From an uncultured Sphingomonadaceae bacterium (GTDB lineage Bacteria; Pseudomonadota; Alphaproteobacteria; Sphingomonadales; Sphingomonadaceae): a stretch of 64,000 nucleotides of DNA. Position 1 is the stretch's first letter. Each line of letters begins with the position of its first letter. The notes below the pieces were generated by a model. The model was not told where the DNA came from and did no database searches. It worked only from the letters and a program-made list of their open reading frames with translations. A program made the position numbers and the translations under genes. The DNA is taken from positions 1,860,001 through 1,924,000 of the forward strand of contig CANKZR010000001.1 in the NCBI GenBank assembly GCA_947488625.1, written 5' to 3'. This document shows, piece by piece, positions 24,668 through 31,013 of this stretch.

Positions 24668-25288
24668 CTAGGCCTCCTTCGTCTCCCGGTAGCTTGCCTC
24701 TATCCGCAACCGAACGGCTTCCGCAGCGTGGTTCGCACCCAGCTTGTCCATCATGTTGGCCCGGTGAATCTCCACGGTACGCGGACTGATCTCCAGGTTG
24801 CGAGCGATGGCCTTGTTGGAACACCCCTCGCTGAGCCAGTCGAGCACCTCGCGCTCACGCCGCGACAGGGTTTCGATGCGGCTGCGCGCCTCGATCAGGC
24901 GGCGGCGCGCGTCCGCATGCCGACCGGCGTCTGAATCGACATGCGCGATCATGCGTCGCAATTCCTCGGGCGTCAGCGGCAATTGCAGGAAATCCAGCGC
25001 ACCGGCCTGAATGGCCTCCACCACCTCGTCCACCCCCGGCTCTGACTTGGCAGCCACCAGCGGTATCCAGATGCCCGCCCCGGCCAGTTCATCCAGCAAG
25101 TGTGCGATACCGTTTTCCAGCACCCCTTCGCTGGCGATTATGACTCCGGAGCGTGGTGGCCGGTCGATCAGTTCAACCAGGTCGGAATAGACTTCCGCGT
25201 GATGTCCCATCGACAGGATAAGTCGGCACTGTTCAGCCCGGGTACGGCTGTTACCGCCGACGATATGAATTGAGATACGCTGTTCCAT
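24668..25288 (-). CDS. FixJ/NarL-like regulator with degenerate receiver domain
   Basis: A 206-aa two-domain protein. The C-terminal LuxR-type helix-turn-helix (residues about 140-200) is canonical: LSRREREVLDWLSEG, NKAIARNLEISPRTVEIHR. The N-terminal receiver-like domain has lost the phosphorylation machinery. The acidic pair is VGGNS, the phospho-acceptor position (GVIIASEGV, about residue 53) has no Asp, and the Lys of the FxxKP motif is Leu (DFLQLP). It should therefore work without phosphorylation. No histidine kinase is adjacent. It lies 209 bp downstream of the Anbu operon on the same strand. Confidence 0.88.
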   Translation of the reverse strand: MEQRISIHIVGGNSRTRAEQCRLILSMGHHAEVYSDLVELIDRPPRSGVIIASEGVLENGIAHLLDELAGAGIWIPLVAAKSEPGVDEVVEAIQAGALDFLQLPLTPEELRRMIAHVDSDAGRHADARRRLIEARSRIETLSRREREVLDWLSEGCSNKAIARNLEISPRTVEIHRANMMDKLGANHAAEAVRLRIEASYRETKEA

Positions 25289-25497: not shown

Positions 25498-26253
25498 CTA
25501 GGCTGTCTCGTCGGGCTGGTAGAAGCTGTAGTCGGGCAACGAGTGGAATGCGCTGCGCAGTGCCTCGCTCCAGCTATCGCTGATCGCGGTGAAATAGGGA
25601 TCGGTGCTTTCGATGCGTCGCTCGTGCGTAGGCTCGAAGCTGTCGCGTTCGATCACCATGAGGTCCAGCGGCAGGCCGACCGAAAGATTGGCCTTGAGGG
25701 TGGAATCGAAGCTGACCATCAACAGCTTTACGGCATCCTCAAAACTCATGTTCCGGTCATAGCCGCGGATGATGATGGGCCTGCCGTACTTGGTTTCCCC
25801 GATCTGGAAGAATGGCGTATCGAAGCTCGCCTCGATGAAGTTGCCTTCGGGGTAGATCATGAAAAGGCGCGGTTCCATGCCCTTGATCTGTCCGGCGAGA
25901 ATGATCGAGGCGGTGAACCGTCCCTTGCCGCGCGCGCCGTTGTCGGTCTGCGTCTCTGCGATCACCTCTCGCAAGAGCTTGCCGGTTTCGCTGGCGACCT
26001 GGAACATGGTGCTGAGTTCCATCAGCGAATTCTGTCGCTCCGATGGGGCCTTTGTCCGTTCTTCCAGGCGACTGATCACCGCTTGCGTGGTGGCAAGGTT
26101 GCCCGCGGTCATCAGAGTGATGACCCTGTCCCCCGGCACCGTCCAGTGGAACATCTTGCGAAATACCGAGATATTGTCGACGCCCGAATTTGTGCGGGTG
26201 TCGCTCATCAGTACAAGGCCCTTGTCGAGCACCATTCCTACGCAATACGTCAT
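25498..26253 (-). CDS. Anbu proteasome-like NTN peptidase
   Basis: A 251-aa member of the bacterial Anbu (COG3484) branch of proteasome-type NTN hydrolases. Removal of the initiator Met exposes Thr2 (TYCVGMVLDKG); the other expected active-site residues are Asp18 (LMSDTRT) and Lys33 (SVFRKMF), matching Thr1/Asp17/Lys33 of proteasome beta subunits within one position. Anbu proteins form open helical assemblies, and their peptidase activity is weak or unproven. The ATG at 26253 overlaps the transglutaminase stop by four bases. It closes the operon ATP-grasp, Alpha-E, transglutaminase, Anbu. Confidence 0.92.
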   Translation of the reverse strand: MTYCVGMVLDKGLVLMSDTRTNSGVDNISVFRKMFHWTVPGDRVITLMTAGNLATTQAVISRLEERTKAPSERQNSLMELSTMFQVASETGKLLREVIAETQTDNGARGKGRFTASIILAGQIKGMEPRLFMIYPEGNFIEASFDTPFFQIGETKYGRPIIIRGYDRNMSFEDAVKLLMVSFDSTLKANLSVGLPLDLMVIERDSFEPTHERRIESTDPYFTAISDSWSEALRSAFHSLPDYSFYQPDETA

Positions 26254-27074
26254 TGTTGCTGCTGTTCTTCCATTTGCTGTTCCACGGCAAGATCGACCGT
26301 AAGGTCTTCGGTCACCGCGCCAAAGCTGATGCCCGTGATTGGTGCCGCATCGCGATAGTCGCGGCCGGTCGCCACGCGCACATAACGCGGATCGGGGCTT
26401 ATGCCGTTGGAGATATCGAAGCCGACCCAGCCCAGCCCCTGCACATAGGCCTCTGCCCAGGCATGGCTGGCTTCCTGTTCGATCCGGTCGTTCATCATCA
26501 GATACCCGCTGACGTAGCGTGCCGGGATATCCAGCGAGCGCGCCGCGGCGATGAAGATGTGCGCATGATCCTGACACACGCCGATGCCTTCGGTTGCGGC
26601 CTCCTCGCCAGTCGTCGCAACGCCGGTGCTGCCGGTGCCATATGTCACCTTGTTGCGAATAACGTCCGAAAGATTGTGCAGCGTGCCGACCATGCCTTCC
26701 TCGCTACGCTCGACCTGCGCGATCAGCGCCTTGATCTTCGGGCCGGGACGGGTGAGGTCTGTCTGACTGAGGAAAGCCCAGAGCGGCAGATGGCCCGAAT
26801 GCTGGCCGATAACTCCGGCGTGATCCTGCGTATCCACCTTGCCCGAGCACGACACGACCACTTCGGTCGCACCTTCTTCAACTGCGGCCAGGGTGACGTG
26901 GTTGAAGTTCTGGTCATCGTAGGTCAGCTGTTCGTGCGCGCCTTCGAATTCCATATTCCATTCGACGATTTTCTGGCCCTGCGTTTCCTTCGGCGTGAGG
27001 CGCAACCGCTGGATGCCGTGCGCAACCGGGGATGCAAAGCGATAGCGAGTGGTATGGCGAATAGAGAGGCGCAT
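26250..27074 (-). CDS. Transglutaminase-like cysteine peptidase of the Anbu operon
   Basis: A 274-aa protein with the N-terminal beta-strand region (MRLSIRHTTRYRFASPV) and C-terminal transglutaminase core usual for COG1305 members. The catalytic triad is Cys167 (GIGVCQDHAHIF), His204 (EASHAWAEAY) and Asp220 (WVGFDISNG). In bacteria these folds mostly hydrolyse or transfer amide bonds, and in this operon a role on a peptide product made by the ATP-grasp enzyme is inferred. It starts 12 bp after the Alpha-E gene and is translationally coupled to Anbu. Confidence 0.92.
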   Translation of the reverse strand: MRLSIRHTTRYRFASPVAHGIQRLRLTPKETQGQKIVEWNMEFEGAHEQLTYDDQNFNHVTLAAVEEGATEVVVSCSGKVDTQDHAGVIGQHSGHLPLWAFLSQTDLTRPGPKIKALIAQVERSEEGMVGTLHNLSDVIRNKVTYGTGSTGVATTGEEAATEGIGVCQDHAHIFIAAARSLDIPARYVSGYLMMNDRIEQEASHAWAEAYVQGLGWVGFDISNGISPDPRYVRVATGRDYRDAAPITGISFGAVTEDLTVDLAVEQQMEEQQQQ

Positions 27075-27086
27075 GGTGTTTTCCCG

Positions 27087-28031
27087 TCAGGCGACGAAGC
27101 GATAATCCTCGGCAATGGCACCGGCCAGCTTCTGGTTATCGGCAATGAATTCCAGCAGGAACTGGTGCAGTCCCTGATCGAAGATGTCTTCCACCTTCTT
27201 GCCGGTAAGGCGCAAATCGGCTTCCCGCATGGCAGAGTGGCAGGTGCCCTCGCTACCATGCACCTGCGCGAGTTCGGCCAGGTTTTCGCGCATTTCGCAA
27301 TAACAGAATACGAGGCTGCGGGGAAAGCGTCCGTCAAGGATCAAAAAATCCGCGATAGAACGCGCATCCATCCGTCCGGCGTTCAGCCAGCGATAGGCGC
27401 GCTCAGCCGAAAGGGAGCGCAGGACGTTGTCCCATTGTCCTGTATCCAGCGGCGTACCCACGTAGGATAGCGACGGCAGCAGCAGGTAGTACTTCACGTC
27501 AAGAATACGCGCGGTGTTGTCCGCCCGCTCCAGAAAGGTGCCGAGGCGCGAGAAACTGTAGGTCTCATTACGCAGCATCGAGCCATGCGAGGCGCCACGC
27601 GCCAGCGTGCTGCCGCGACGGATTGCGCCCAGCGCCATGTTGAGGTTGGAATTGCGCACCGGCCTTGCCAGCAGGTCGCGCATGGTCATCCAACCTTCGT
27701 TGACCGCTTCCCAAACCTCTCCCGTAATAGCAGAGCGGCAGGCGCGGGCATTCGTGCGCGCGTTCTCCACCATCGAGAACACGCTTTCGGAATTGTCCTT
27801 CGACCGCAAAACGAAGTCGCACACATGCGCCCCTTCGTAATCGTCATGATGTTCTTCGTAAGCCTGGCGATGGCCAAGCGTGGTGAGGATGGATTTCCAT
27901 TCCTGGTCGGCCATATCCTGTCCGCGGGTCAGCGCCATACGCTGTCCGGCGGCCAGCAAACGGGCCGTGTTCTCGGCCCGCTCGAGATAGCGGTACATCC
28001 AGAAAATTCCGTGGGCGACGCGTCCCAGCAT
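27087..28031 (-). CDS. Alpha-E domain protein
   Basis: A 314-aa all-helical protein of the Alpha-E (DUF403, COG2307) family. The N-terminus LGRVAHGIFWMYRYLERAEN and the later YSFSRLGTFLERADNTARIL are the duplicated family signatures. The biochemical function is unknown. The family is almost always encoded next to a circularly permuted ATP-grasp and a transglutaminase, and is thought to assist peptide or amide formation. It lies 22 bp downstream of the ATP-grasp gene in a tight operon. Confidence 0.92.
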   Translation of the reverse strand: MLGRVAHGIFWMYRYLERAENTARLLAAGQRMALTRGQDMADQEWKSILTTLGHRQAYEEHHDDYEGAHVCDFVLRSKDNSESVFSMVENARTNARACRSAITGEVWEAVNEGWMTMRDLLARPVRNSNLNMALGAIRRGSTLARGASHGSMLRNETYSFSRLGTFLERADNTARILDVKYYLLLPSLSYVGTPLDTGQWDNVLRSLSAERAYRWLNAGRMDARSIADFLILDGRFPRSLVFCYCEMRENLAELAQVHGSEGTCHSAMREADLRLTGKKVEDIFDQGLHQFLLEFIADNQKLAGAIAEDYRFVA

Positions 28032-28053
28032 TACAGTGTTTCTCCGCCCAGCA

Positions 28054-29484
28054 TCAATCTTCCAGTACCCAGCTATCTTTCGTACCGCCCCCCTGGCTGG
28101 AATTCACCACCAGCGAGCCTTTCTTCAGCGCCACGCGCGTCAGGCCGCCCGGCGTGATATCCACGCCTTCGGGCGAGCACAGGACGAAAGGCCGCAGGTC
28201 GACGTGGCGCGGTGCCAGCCCCTTCTTGGTGAAGATGGGACAGGTCGAAAGCGCCAGCGTGGGCTGCGCGATGTAATTTTCCGGACGGGCTTCCAGCTTG
28301 GCGCGAAATTCCTTCAACTCTTTCTTCGAAGAAGTGGGGCCGATCAGCATACCGTATCCGCCGGAACCATGGACTTCCTTCACCACCAGTTCGGCCAGGT
28401 TATCCAGCACGTATTTCAGCGAATCCGGATCGGCGCAGCGGAAGGTTTCCACATTGGGCAACAGCGGCTTCTCACCGGTATAGAACTCCACTATCTCGGG
28501 CATGAAGGAATAGATGGCCTTGTCGTCGGCAACACCCGTACCCGGCGCGTTGGCGATGGTGACGTTGCCAGCGCGGTATACGTCCATCACGCCGGGAATG
28601 CCCAGCACGCTGTCGCGATTGAAGGTAAGCGGATCAAGGTATTCGTCATCCACGCGTCGGTAGATCACATCAACCGGGCGGAAGCCCACCGTGGTGCGCA
28701 TGTGGACCTTGCCGTCGATCACGCGAAGGTCGCTACCTTCGACAAGCTCTGCACCCATCTGGTCGGCCAGGAAGGCGTGTTCGTAATAGGCAGAATTGTA
28801 GATGCCCGGCGTCAGCACGGCGATGCTGGGCTTGTCGTTTGCCCCTTCGGGTGCACAGGCCGCGAGGCTCTTCGCCAGCCTACGCGGATAGTCGGAAACG
28901 TCGCTCACTTTCACCTTGCTGAACAGCTCGGGGAACATGGCCATCATCGTTTCACGGTTTTCTAGCATGTATGAAACGCCGCTGGGCGTGCGGGCATTAT
29001 CTTCCAGCACCATGAACTCGTCCGGCCCTGTGCGAACAAGGTCGATACCGACGATATGGGTGTAGACGCCGCCGGGCGGGGTAAAGCCAACCATTTCGGC
29101 CAGCCACGCCGCATTGTCGCGGAAAAGGCGTTCGGGCAGGCGGCCCGAGCGGATGATCTCCTGACGGTGATACAGATCGTGCATGAAGGCGTTGAGTGCC
29201 CTCACCCGCTGCTCGATACCGCGCGACAGGCGGCGCCATTCGCCACCTGTGATGATGCGCGGCACCATGTCGAAGGGGATCAGCCGCTCCTCGGCATCGT
29301 CTTCGCCATAGACGTTGAAAGTGATGCCGGTCTTGCGAAAGAAGCTCTCCGCCTCGAACGCCTTGCGGCGCATCCAGCCATCGTTCTGGCCCGAAAGCCA
29401 TTCGTCGTAACCGCGATAAGCCTCTCGCACTGACCCGTCAGGCTTGTGCATTTCATCGAATTTGGCCGGCTCGGTCGCGGTCAC
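28054..29484 (-). CDS. Circularly permuted ATP-grasp protein (type 2)
   Basis: A 476-aa predicted amide/peptide-bond-forming ligase of the circularly permuted ATP-grasp family (COG2308). Typical blocks are GYDEWLSGQ near the N-terminus, LIPFDMVPRII, VLEDNARTPSGVSYMLENRE, and the C-terminal VVKEVHGSGGYGMLIGP nucleotide-binding loop. The substrate is unknown; such enzymes have been predicted to make short peptides or modify proteins. Translation starts at a GTG (29484) with AAGGGGA seven bases upstream. It is the first gene of the operon and has a perfect 19-bp palindrome 48 bp upstream. Confidence 0.92.
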   Translation of the reverse strand: MTATEPAKFDEMHKPDGSVREAYRGYDEWLSGQNDGWMRRKAFEAESFFRKTGITFNVYGEDDAEERLIPFDMVPRIITGGEWRRLSRGIEQRVRALNAFMHDLYHRQEIIRSGRLPERLFRDNAAWLAEMVGFTPPGGVYTHIVGIDLVRTGPDEFMVLEDNARTPSGVSYMLENRETMMAMFPELFSKVKVSDVSDYPRRLAKSLAACAPEGANDKPSIAVLTPGIYNSAYYEHAFLADQMGAELVEGSDLRVIDGKVHMRTTVGFRPVDVIYRRVDDEYLDPLTFNRDSVLGIPGVMDVYRAGNVTIANAPGTGVADDKAIYSFMPEIVEFYTGEKPLLPNVETFRCADPDSLKYVLDNLAELVVKEVHGSGGYGMLIGPTSSKKELKEFRAKLEARPENYIAQPTLALSTCPIFTKKGLAPRHVDLRPFVLCSPEGVDITPGGLTRVALKKGSLVVNSSQGGGTKDSWVLED

Positions 29485-29531: not shown

Positions 29532-29550
29532 CGCGCATGCAGCATGCGCG
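29532..29550. promoter_or_regulatory. Perfect palindrome upstream of the ATP-grasp/Anbu operon, candidate operator
   Basis: CGCGCATGC and GCATGCGCG flank a single central A, giving a 19-bp perfect dyad. It lies between the stop of the alpha/beta hydrolase gene (29577) and the operon start (29484). With a one-base loop it would form a poor RNA hairpin and has no T-run on either side, so a protein-binding operator is more likely than a terminator. No regulator is assigned. Confidence 0.45.
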
Positions 29551-29576: not shown

Positions 29577-30389
29577 TTAGCGTTTCAGTTCCTCGGCCAG
29601 TGCAAGGATTGCTTCGCTGGAGTAGCAAAACCCCATGTGCGAGCAGCGCAAGGCCACGGCACGGTCTCGCTCATCGGGGAGACCACAGGCGCTGCGGCGG
29701 GAGATCGCTCCGTCGCGCGGGCTCCAGAATGCGACGGTTTCGACAGGCGGTTTCTCCGCAACATTTGCCTTTACCGGCGGCTCCTCTACGTGGTGGCCCA
29801 CTATCGCCTGATAGATTCGCCACATATTGTTGGAATAGGGTGTGTGGCTGAAAGGCGTGCCCATGGTGATGACCTTGGCAATGCAGTCTGGCTCCATCTT
29901 GGCCACCTCGCGTGCGAAGATACCGCCAAGGCTCCAACCGATCAGGACCACATCCTGACCATAGCGCTGCCTTACCGAAGACACACGCTGAGCCAGCAGT
30001 TCGAAATTCTCGGGCGTCGGCCCGTAATTGGAGCCTAGACCCCAGCGCTTTACCGTATGGCCTGCCCGTTCCAGTTCCCTCGCCATGCGCTTCATGCTCT
30101 GCGGGTTGGCAGCGAAGCCCGGCAGCAGAATGATAACGCGCGGATGTTCCGCCCGCTCTATCGGCAAGGGGGCTTTGAACAGACGAAATGCCGGAGCGAA
30201 AAGTTCGGCAAATTCCGCTGCGAAGAAGCGCAAGGGCGGGGTATGCGCGTCCGGCGGTGCCTCGCCTCTCAGCAGATCGAACCGGTGCCGTAGCGCCATG
30301 CCCACACCGCGCACGGCATCGGCAACACCGCGAAGGGTATCAGCGATACGGCCGGGAACCGGCGAAAGGATCGAAGCGACTGAAGTCAT
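29577..30389 (-). CDS. Alpha/beta hydrolase (lipase/esterase-like)
   Basis: A 270-aa alpha/beta hydrolase. The oxyanion strand is VIILLPGFAANPQSMKRMA and the nucleophile elbow LIGWSLGGIFARE carries the catalytic Ser. The N-terminal 45 residues may associate with the membrane. It resembles triacylglycerol lipase/PGAP1-like hydrolases without a clear substrate. The ATG at 30389 is used; a TTG three codons upstream is possible. An inverted repeat TGTAACA-N9-TGTTACA lies ten bases before the start. Same strand as the Anbu operon but separated from it by 92 bp and the palindrome. Confidence 0.82.
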   Translation of the reverse strand: MTSVASILSPVPGRIADTLRGVADAVRGVGMALRHRFDLLRGEAPPDAHTPPLRFFAAEFAELFAPAFRLFKAPLPIERAEHPRVIILLPGFAANPQSMKRMARELERAGHTVKRWGLGSNYGPTPENFELLAQRVSSVRQRYGQDVVLIGWSLGGIFAREVAKMEPDCIAKVITMGTPFSHTPYSNNMWRIYQAIVGHHVEEPPVKANVAEKPPVETVAFWSPRDGAISRRSACGLPDERDRAVALRCSHMGFCYSSEAILALAEELKR

Positions 30390-30398
30390 GAGCACCAA

Positions 30399-30479: not shown

Positions 30480-31013
30480 TCAGCCGCAATCGCCGACGCG
30501 CTCGGTCTGCACCTGCAGCACGATATTCACATCTCCGACATTGGGGATCGGCTGGGTAAAGCCCATTTCCATATCGGATGCGGTGTCGCTGGTCGTGCCG
30601 GCCATGGTTATGCGGCCCTGTGGTCCGTCTTCGGCGTCACAAGTCATCGCAAGATCGATGTCGCCATCGTTGGCGGACAGGCGCGAGATGGCGCAGCTGT
30701 TATCCGTCATGGCCGAAATCCAGGCTTCCCGGCCCATCGCCTCTGTCACGCAGAAACTGGTCTGTTCTTGCGCGCCCTCGGCAAATGCCGCTTCCAGCGC
30801 AGCCATGTCCTGCACCTGACCGGCAACCATCTCGACAGACACCAGCTCGTAGCTGGCGCTGTATTCGCCCGGTTGCGGCATGATGCCGTTGTCTTCGCCC
30901 TGCGCCAGAACCTCGTCCATGGAGAGAGCCTCGTCGGTCAGTTCCTCGTCCGCGTTGTCACAGGCGGCAAGGGCAAGGCCGGCTATCAGCGGCAGGCAAT
31001 GGATCAGGCGCAT
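30480..31013 (-). CDS. DUF3617 family lipoprotein (copy 1)
   Basis: A 177-aa lipoprotein with lipobox LAAC, followed by the DUF3617 pattern. This includes QPGEYSASYELVSVEM, a FCVTEAM cysteine segment, the CAISRLSAND and DLAMTCDAEDGPQGRITMAG blocks, and a terminal TERVGDC. The paired cysteines suggest disulfides in the periplasm. The function of DUF3617 proteins is unknown. The second copy lies 137 bp upstream on the same strand with the same domain plan, so the pair arose by duplication. Confidence 0.82.
   Translation of the reverse strand: MRLIHCLPLIAGLALAACDNADEELTDEALSMDEVLAQGEDNGIMPQPGEYSASYELVSVEMVAGQVQDMAALEAAFAEGAQEQTSFCVTEAMGREAWISAMTDNSCAISRLSANDGDIDLAMTCDAEDGPQGRITMAGTTSDTASDMEMGFTQPIPNVGDVNIVLQVQTERVGDCG

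Follow-up and report, generated by a model that had tools for sequence, protein, structure and literature searches.

The bacterial Anbu operon: a putative ligase core with separable modules and a possible role in carbon–nitrogen imbalance

What does the Anbu operon build or cleave, and under which condition is it used? Anbu is a proteasome-like N-terminal nucleophile (Ntn) hydrolase that has lacked an assigned function since its naming. Proposals on the evolution of the proteasome place Anbu as its ancestral form or as an intermediate (PMC5666114, PMC6376114). The question is raised by a stretch of 64,000 nucleotides, hereafter the window (contig 1, bases 1860001–1924000; genome size 3.21 Mb), which carries on its minus strand four genes in a row: a circularly permuted ATP-grasp protein, an Alpha-E protein, a transglutaminase-like (TG) protein, and Anbu. 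This operon is an ordinary, intact member of the already described and widespread bacterial Anbu operon. The arrangement of ATP-grasp, alphaE, transglutaminase, and Anbu reportedly goes back to Valas & Bourne 2008 and Iyer 2009. The make-up of the operon is modular, with a core of ATP-grasp and Alpha-E, and TG or Anbu can be missing nearby. The explanation put forward here—ATP-grasp and Alpha-E as an amide ligase core, TG and Anbu as separable modules, and the whole used in carbon–nitrogen imbalance—stands at an even chance in our judgment. The original prediction for this locus named no physiological condition; the evidence, coming mostly from relatives, points to nitrogen shortage together with carbon excess. 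Given two testable regulators, a lineage that keeps Anbu without the ligase, and the prediction that the operon is used under carbon excess, nitrogen shortage, and accumulation of polyhydroxybutyrate (PHB), the question becomes open to direct experiment.

Architecture of the operon and its relatives

The operon starts with the ATP-grasp gene (28054..29484, minus strand; 476 aa, GTG start), a putative amide ligase of the CP_ATPgrasp_2 family. It is followed on the same strand by the genes of Alpha-E (27087..28031; 314 aa), the all-helical partner of ATP-grasp, of the transglutaminase-like/papain-like protein TG (26250..27074; 274 aa), and of Anbu (25498..26253; 251 aa). ATP-grasp and Alpha-E are spaced by 22 bp and Alpha-E and TG by 12 bp, while TG and Anbu overlap by 4 bases, a spacing that would fit a single transcript. 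Order, gaps, and overlap had been stated correctly to the base, and the active sites that had been called intact are all present: Cys167, His204, and Asp220 as the triad of TG, and Thr2, Asp18, and Lys33 of Anbu. All four families score above their Pfam cut-offs (PF14403 for ATP-grasp, E = 1.6e-164; PF04168 for Alpha-E, 4.5e-86; PF01841, 1.3e-22, and PF08379, 1.9e-19, for TG; PF00227 for Anbu, 1.2e-12), and zero NCBIfam models match ATP-grasp, Alpha-E, or TG at E ≤ 0.001.

The set of related loci consists of 80 loci kept from 552 Anbu relatives; with the window added, it comprises 81. Because neighbor pairs recur in 75–77 of these 81 loci (ATP-grasp/Alpha-E in 75, Alpha-E/TG in 77, TG/Anbu in 77), the four-gene arrangement is not due to chance; the loci without the pairs are contig ends (L031, L034, L049, L074) or two losses (L025, L036). 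The usual order across the 80 related loci is hydrolase, ATP-grasp, Alpha-E, TG, Anbu, and a FixJ/LuxR-type regulator. Within the 80 loci kept, Aurantiacibacter rhizosphaerae has the Anbu closest to that of the window (94%), and two more loci also reach 94%. Judged by these closest Anbu relatives, the host would be an Erythrobacteraceae bacterium near Aurantiacibacter.

The window shares with the Anbu operon in print (PMC5666114, PMC6376114) the same four families, the same order, and an intact Anbu Thr/Asp/Lys. It differs by having no convincing sigma-54 site, and the Erythrobacteraceae copies differ by a conserved upstream hydrolase and, usually, a downstream FixJ/LuxR-type gene. To speak of an undescribed pathway, as the original prediction did, was too strong, since descriptions of the operon are in print and Anbu has been crystallized. 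An Anbu-less sister operon (Burkholderia cenocepacia I35_5080-83, PMC5491218) features the same core domains, ATP-grasp DUF404/407, Alpha-E DUF403, and transglutaminase; in contrast to the window, a second, large transglutaminase replaces Anbu. Control of this sister operon by NtrC and sigma-54 is in print (PMC5491218).

The four proteins

The ATP-grasp protein of the window matches CP_ATPgrasp_2 with 547.8 bits (cut-off 32) and covers profile positions 1–374 of 374; at E ≤ 0.001, Pfam shows CP_ATPgrasp families only. Its AlphaFold model is poor (predicted local distance difference test, pLDDT, 44.7) and was not used. Phosphate release by the ATP-grasp protein of the operon was reported, and the operon proteins were reported to be without specific interaction (PMC6376114). 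The sole solved relative found is 3n6x (E = 6.2e-188), labeled by its depositors as a putative glutathionylspermidine synthase. For Alpha-E, PDB sequences gave no match up to E = 1. Its AlphaFold2 model from 47 sequences is all-helical and confident (pLDDT 90.3, predicted template modeling score 0.89), and a Foldseek search of the PDB with this model returned 179 matches at a limit of E = 10; no match reached E ≤ 0.001, and TM-scores were at most 0.30 among the 50 matches listed. The fold of Alpha-E may hence not yet be represented among solved structures.

TG has a partial solved relative, 3isr (E = 3.9e-18). Among TG homologues of at least 100 bits, His and Asp are kept in 76/76 Erythrobacteraceae and 67/67 others, and Cys in 76/76 and 61/67. 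The context is clear in three of the six exceptions: in L088, L154, and L145, the Cys is replaced by Tyr, Ala, or Ser with His and Asp kept, which suggests a non-catalytic role of TG in some lineages. TG activity is not universal, the catalytic Cys being replaced in at least three stretches; in the window, the triad is intact.

The name given to 3n6x and the adjacency of a ligase and a papain-like hydrolase could be taken as signs of a reversible conjugation of small thiols or polyamines, comparable to glutathionylspermidine synthetase/amidase, in which the ligase forms an amide and the TG-like enzyme hydrolyzes it. However, the name is a depositor label only, Pfam places the protein among the CP_ATPgrasp families alone, and TG is without its Cys in some lineages. 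Such a conjugation system is very unlikely in our assessment. According to the mechanism preferred here, the ATP-grasp protein would activate a carboxylate with ATP and join it to an amine, with Alpha-E as its constant partner. The TG-like cysteine enzyme and Anbu would be detachable modules that cleave or transfer amides, acting either on the product of the ligase or on other peptides.

Anbu belongs, like the 20S proteasome beta subunit and HslV, to PF00227 and carries a threonine after the start Met. It differs from them by lacking an AAA+ partner in the operon and by its nearest solved structures: the five closest chains are 5loy (E = 3.7e-85), 5nyj, 5nyf, 5nyw, and 5lox—all Anbu or "peptidase" entries of the Anbu group—whereas a solved proteasome beta subunit is matched at only 3.4e-06. 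Its NCBIfam matches are archaeal proteasome models only, far under their cut-offs. The T/D/K residues are invariant in all 152 aligned homologues of at least 150 bits (80/80 Erythrobacteraceae and 72/72 others). An open split-ring assembly of Anbu is known from print (PMC6376114, PMC5666114).

This proteasome-like character, with T/D/K kept throughout, would agree with a tag-and-degrade system of the pupylation kind: ATP-grasp, Alpha-E, and TG would mark proteins with a tag through an amide bond, and Anbu would either degrade the tagged proteins or remove the tag. A prediction to this effect is cited (PMC6376114, PMC5666114), and binding of inhibitor to Anbu and a ring-shaped arrangement of its sites were reported (PMC5666114). 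On the other hand, the operon is devoid of an AAA+ partner, and, on the standard substrates tried, peptidase activity of Anbu was not found (PMC6376114). The distribution of the genes bears on this rival as well.

Modularity across Alphaproteobacteria

The class sample comprises 289 alphaproteobacterial genomes with a requested completeness of at least 90%. Alpha-E occurs in 120 of them and Anbu in 93, of which 75 have a strong match (E < 1e-50) and 18 a weak one. Strong Anbu and Alpha-E co-occur in 72 of 75 genomes (Fisher p = 1.8e-31, uncorrected for phylogeny and with the 18 weak-Anbu genomes omitted). Among the three exceptions, G127 carries Anbu and TG at one contig edge and an ATP-grasp gene at another; its lack of Alpha-E is perhaps an assembly gap. 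The other two, G216 and G285 (L122, L123), belong to one genus and have genomes of 1.4 Mb without a match to Alpha-E. In both, the ATP-grasp gene lies beside Anbu in a divergent arrangement. The weak matches to the Anbu profile (E 1e-22 to 1e-31; e.g., G227, G146, G032) perhaps represent another proteasome-like family; in the two such stretches covered (L120, L121), the other operon genes were not found nearby.

From the class sample, 80 stretches were selected by hand; they hold 69 Alpha-E loci, some of them at contig edges. In 69/69 loci, a CP-ATP-grasp gene lies within 3 kb of Alpha-E. Within the same distance, all four genes are found at 33 loci (27 GTDB families), the core and TG at 22 (17 families), the core and Anbu at 7 (7 families), and the core only at 7 (6 families). 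Anbu lies farther off than 3 kb in L135 and L161. Hence, the notion of one obligate four-enzyme pathway could not be upheld: 29 of 69 Alpha-E loci have no Anbu within 3 kb, and Anbu-only genomes exist. The same loci—22 with the core and TG and 7 with the core only—speak against a tag-and-degrade system, as does the occurrence of Anbu without any match to the core, and we regard this rival as unlikely. Conversely, 11 class-sample stretches, three of them at contig edges, hold Anbu without Alpha-E within 3 kb.

The window genome has a single Alpha-E, encoded in a frame of 338 codons; many class-sample genomes have a further Alpha-E inside an open frame of at least 800 codons. Clustering of the neighboring open reading frames in the 80 stretches gave no strong candidate for an additional conserved partner gene outside Erythrobacteraceae. 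The clusters present in most families number four, three of which are annotated as ABC ATPases, short-chain dehydrogenases, and enoyl-CoA hydratases.

Anbu without the ligase core

At two of the related loci, Altererythrobacter segetis YJ20 (L025; L186) and a metagenome-assembled genome (MAG) of Croceibacterium (L036; L187), the upstream hydrolase is directly followed by Anbu and the regulator. A genome-wide search of both gave no match to Alpha-E or CP_ATPgrasp_2; TG, sought at the locus only, is not there. The ratio of nonsynonymous to synonymous substitutions (dN/dS) between the two Anbu genes is 0.12 at a dS of 0.49. Twelve comparison pairs from operon-bearing loci range from 0.02 to 0.21, one pair having a saturated dS, and the two Anbu genes against seven others range from 0.11 to 0.24. 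With this dN/dS of 0.12 in core-less genomes, Anbu can therefore persist under constraint without the ligase core. The Anbu-only lineage is, as far as could be found, new and testable.

The constraint on Anbu in these two genomes, which keep the regulator but not the core, and the 11 stretches without Alpha-E nearby, would also suit an Anbu that is an independent protease or amidase, sharing with the ligase core only a promoter and a physiological condition and no common substrate. Against this stands the presence of Alpha-E in nearly all strong-Anbu genomes. Moreover, a single event probably underlies both losses, one genome of the pair is a MAG, and TG was sought at the locus only. A fully independent Anbu is unlikely in our judgment.

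Possible regulation by sigma-54-like promoters

Upstream regions were scored with a weighted sigma-54 consensus. Sigma-54-like sites with a score of at least 13.4 of 15.2 occur in 12 of the 68 ATP-grasp upstream regions of the class sample, compared with 0.53 expected from the stretch-wide density; they span 8 GTDB families, and two reach the maximum score. RpoN is encoded in 227 of 289 genomes, the window genome included. A predicted proteobacterial sigma-54 cluster contains COG3484 (PMC12316311), the COG number of Anbu. In Pseudomonas putida, PP_2685 (Anbu) and PP_2688 (ATP-grasp) are higher on nitrate than on ammonium, by log2 4.44 and 3.99, respectively (PMC8050072), and Anbu was reported as upregulated under nitrogen limitation (PMC5666114). 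PP_2685 and its neighbors are also named with regard to polyhydroxyalkanoate synthesis and nitrogen limitation in this organism (PMC7801951, PMC3325844). Loss of ntrC in B. cenocepacia lowers expression of the sister operon, with log2 values of −6.0 to −9.4 (PMC5491218), and in marine metagenomes, the ATP-grasp, Alpha-E, and TG domains are associated with urea metabolism domains (PMC3597751).

A putative PhaR-type operator before the ATP-grasp gene of relatives

The spacers between the hydrolase and ATP-grasp genes carry a repeated TGYTGCANTGCARCA-like motif. Its likeness to PhaR sites was checked against phasin and phaR promoters and the published consensus. In total, 68 spacers, including that of the window, were scanned (3 of 71 gaps outside 40–160 bp were dropped); among the control spacers, 27/77 TG/Anbu and 4/76 Anbu/regulator spacers were omitted by length. 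Searched for as the strict pattern YTGCN3GCAR, it is present in 13 of 68 hydrolase/ATP-grasp spacers (0.25 expected) versus 1 of 72 Anbu/regulator spacers (0.78 expected).

The PhaR gene is present in 57 of 59 genomes of the family, that of the window included, and the phasin gene in 26 of 26. Phasin promoters feature two PhaR-type sites in 24/26 cases and one in 2/26; the two sites of the window genome's own phasin promoter (L239) are TTGTGCACTGCAACA and TTGTGCAGTGCACCA. A matrix was trained on 51 sites from 25 phasin promoters only—L224 was omitted because it comes from the same genome as L223—with a score of at least 8 as site call. This matrix identifies sites in 27 of 68 hydrolase/ATP-grasp spacers (shuffle mean 0.36, maximum 2; about 0.6 expected at the whole-locus rate), those of L013 (Croceibacterium soli) and L032 among them, and in 23 of 53 non-redundant ones. 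In control stretches of the same loci, it identifies 0/50 in TG/Anbu, 0/72 in Anbu/regulator, and 0/72 upstream of the hydrolase (0/194). The sites start 23–59 bases ahead of the ATP-grasp gene, with 15 of the 27 starting at 23–25, and the mean pairwise identity is 71% inside the 15-mer site versus 29–43% around it. Conversely, when a matrix derived from the spacers is used, the region upstream of phaR outscores the gene itself (median 13.4 versus 6.0, 30 loci, p = 5e-7, though not at every locus), and the region upstream of phasin outscores the phasin gene (17.2 versus 10.4, 26 loci, p = 2e-9). The motif agrees with published PhaR sites, namely CTGCNNNGCAG, TGCRNYGCASMA, and TG[N]TGC[N]3GCAA (PMC12542648, PMC6201568, PMC3206438). 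Related operons, and not that of the window, would thereby resemble the alphaproteobacterial regulon of PhaR, the PHB repressor (PMC12542648, PMC6201568).

At the place where many relatives carry this putative operator, the spacer of the window features an inverted repeat, CGCGCATGC-T-GCATGCGCG (29532..29550, no strand assigned), the 9-bp arms of which match perfectly around a single central base. The clade of the window (L002–L008) shares a related GCGCATGCTGCAYGYGCGAA stretch, in which the repeat is kept in part; a further copy within 3 mismatches was not found in the window. The spacer of A. rhizosphaerae resembles that of the window. Since L022 has a site and a genome seemingly identical to that of the same-genus G207 (same phasin coordinates), the site was probably lost near the branch of the window. 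The candidate PhaR-type operator of the relatives is, as far as could be found, new and testable, and does not hold for the window copy. Because the window has neither a PhaR operator nor a convincing sigma-54 site, its regulation is inferred from relatives.

The operon would serve cells in which nitrogen is scarce in relation to carbon. Sigma-54-like promoters would drive it in some Alphaproteobacteria, and in many Erythrobacteraceae the PhaR-type operator should keep it repressed, with PhaR coming off the DNA once PHB has accumulated; in the clade of the window, this operator is not present and the palindrome lies in its place. Sigma-54 and PhaR both answer to carbon–nitrogen imbalance. A further-reaching view is held only tentatively, at somewhat below an even chance: the Anbu operon as a carbon–nitrogen balance module with lineage-specific sensors—sigma-54/NtrC in some lineages, and PhaR in Erythrobacteraceae—whose amide-forming and amide-cleaving enzymes appear during PHB storage under nitrogen shortage and build or recycle an amide-nitrogen compound, with a separable Anbu that has its own substrate and can outlive the ligase.

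Several points weigh against a ligase core used in carbon–nitrogen imbalance. To our knowledge, neither Alpha-E nor TG has an assigned chemistry, and PhaR is not known to bind any Anbu operon; among the literature matches listed, no paper treats PhaR together with Anbu. The best sigma-54 score is 12.5 of 15.2 in the 73 Erythrobacteraceae ATP-grasp upstream regions, with the window outside the 12 best, so that sigma-54 control of its operon was rejected; the 72 hydrolase upstream regions reach 13.2 (L048). PhaR control of the window operon was likewise rejected: its own spacer has a best score of −5.9 and no operator. Neither is there an operator upstream of the window genome's own phaR (2.9), and 41 of 68 spacers are without a PhaR site. 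Matches with a score of at least 8 are also found elsewhere in the loci (in total, 188 in 1.49 Mb). PhaR sites outside the family were rejected, with 9/85 upstream regions at a score of at least 8 (shuffle mean 1.2, maximum 4); six come from one GTDB family (f1), and the remaining three (f46, f108, f4) are near chance. Sinorhizobium meliloti scores 8.1, just at the threshold, and in papers on its PHB and PhaR regulon, the operon genes were not found under the names tried. An ATP-grasp protein, SMb21227, which may or may not belong to the Anbu operon, is part of a PhaR-regulated S. meliloti module among saccharide genes. As for Anbu itself, it was reported as unchanged in various conditions other than nitrogen limitation (PMC5666114). 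The reading as a peptide-making and -processing system holds in part: this is the Anbu operon for which the earlier comparative-genomic prediction of making and trimming a peptide-like product is cited (PMC5666114, PMC6376114), but PMC5666114 favors protein degradation and rates peptide synthesis "less likely".

Flanking genes and rearranged loci

The upstream syntenic neighbor of the operon is an alpha/beta hydrolase (29577..30398, minus strand; PF00561), given here as the listed open reading frame, the true start of which may be internal. A DUF3617 gene (PF12276) lies upstream of the hydrolase at 30480–31013. In G344 (L183), the hydrolase, an extensin-like gene, and uvrB are retained, and the four operon genes and the regulator are absent. 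Because it is retained where the operon is absent, the hydrolase probably lies outside the unit and was rejected as a part of it.

The downstream neighbor is a FixJ/LuxR-type regulator (24668..25288, minus strand; PF00196), which matches the NCBIfam model FixJ with E = 9.9e-34, under the model cut-off. In an alignment of 16 sequences, its receiver half appears to lack the invariant aspartate at the usual phosphorylation site. G311 (L163) retains the four operon genes without the regulator. L167 (G413) is rearranged, with the operon on the opposite side of the extensin-like gene and the regulator absent. In the order sample of 127 genomes with a requested completeness of at least 95%, an orthologue of the regulator (E ≤ 1e-79) occurs in 30, and in 30/30 one copy lies beside Anbu, as compared by eye from the coordinates; this adjacency is partly ascertained because the regulator profile was built from Anbu-adjacent genes. 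One of these 30 genomes, G326, has a second copy of the regulator (G326:C1:1947366-1947986, L181; E = 3.4e-90), located far from the Anbu operon.

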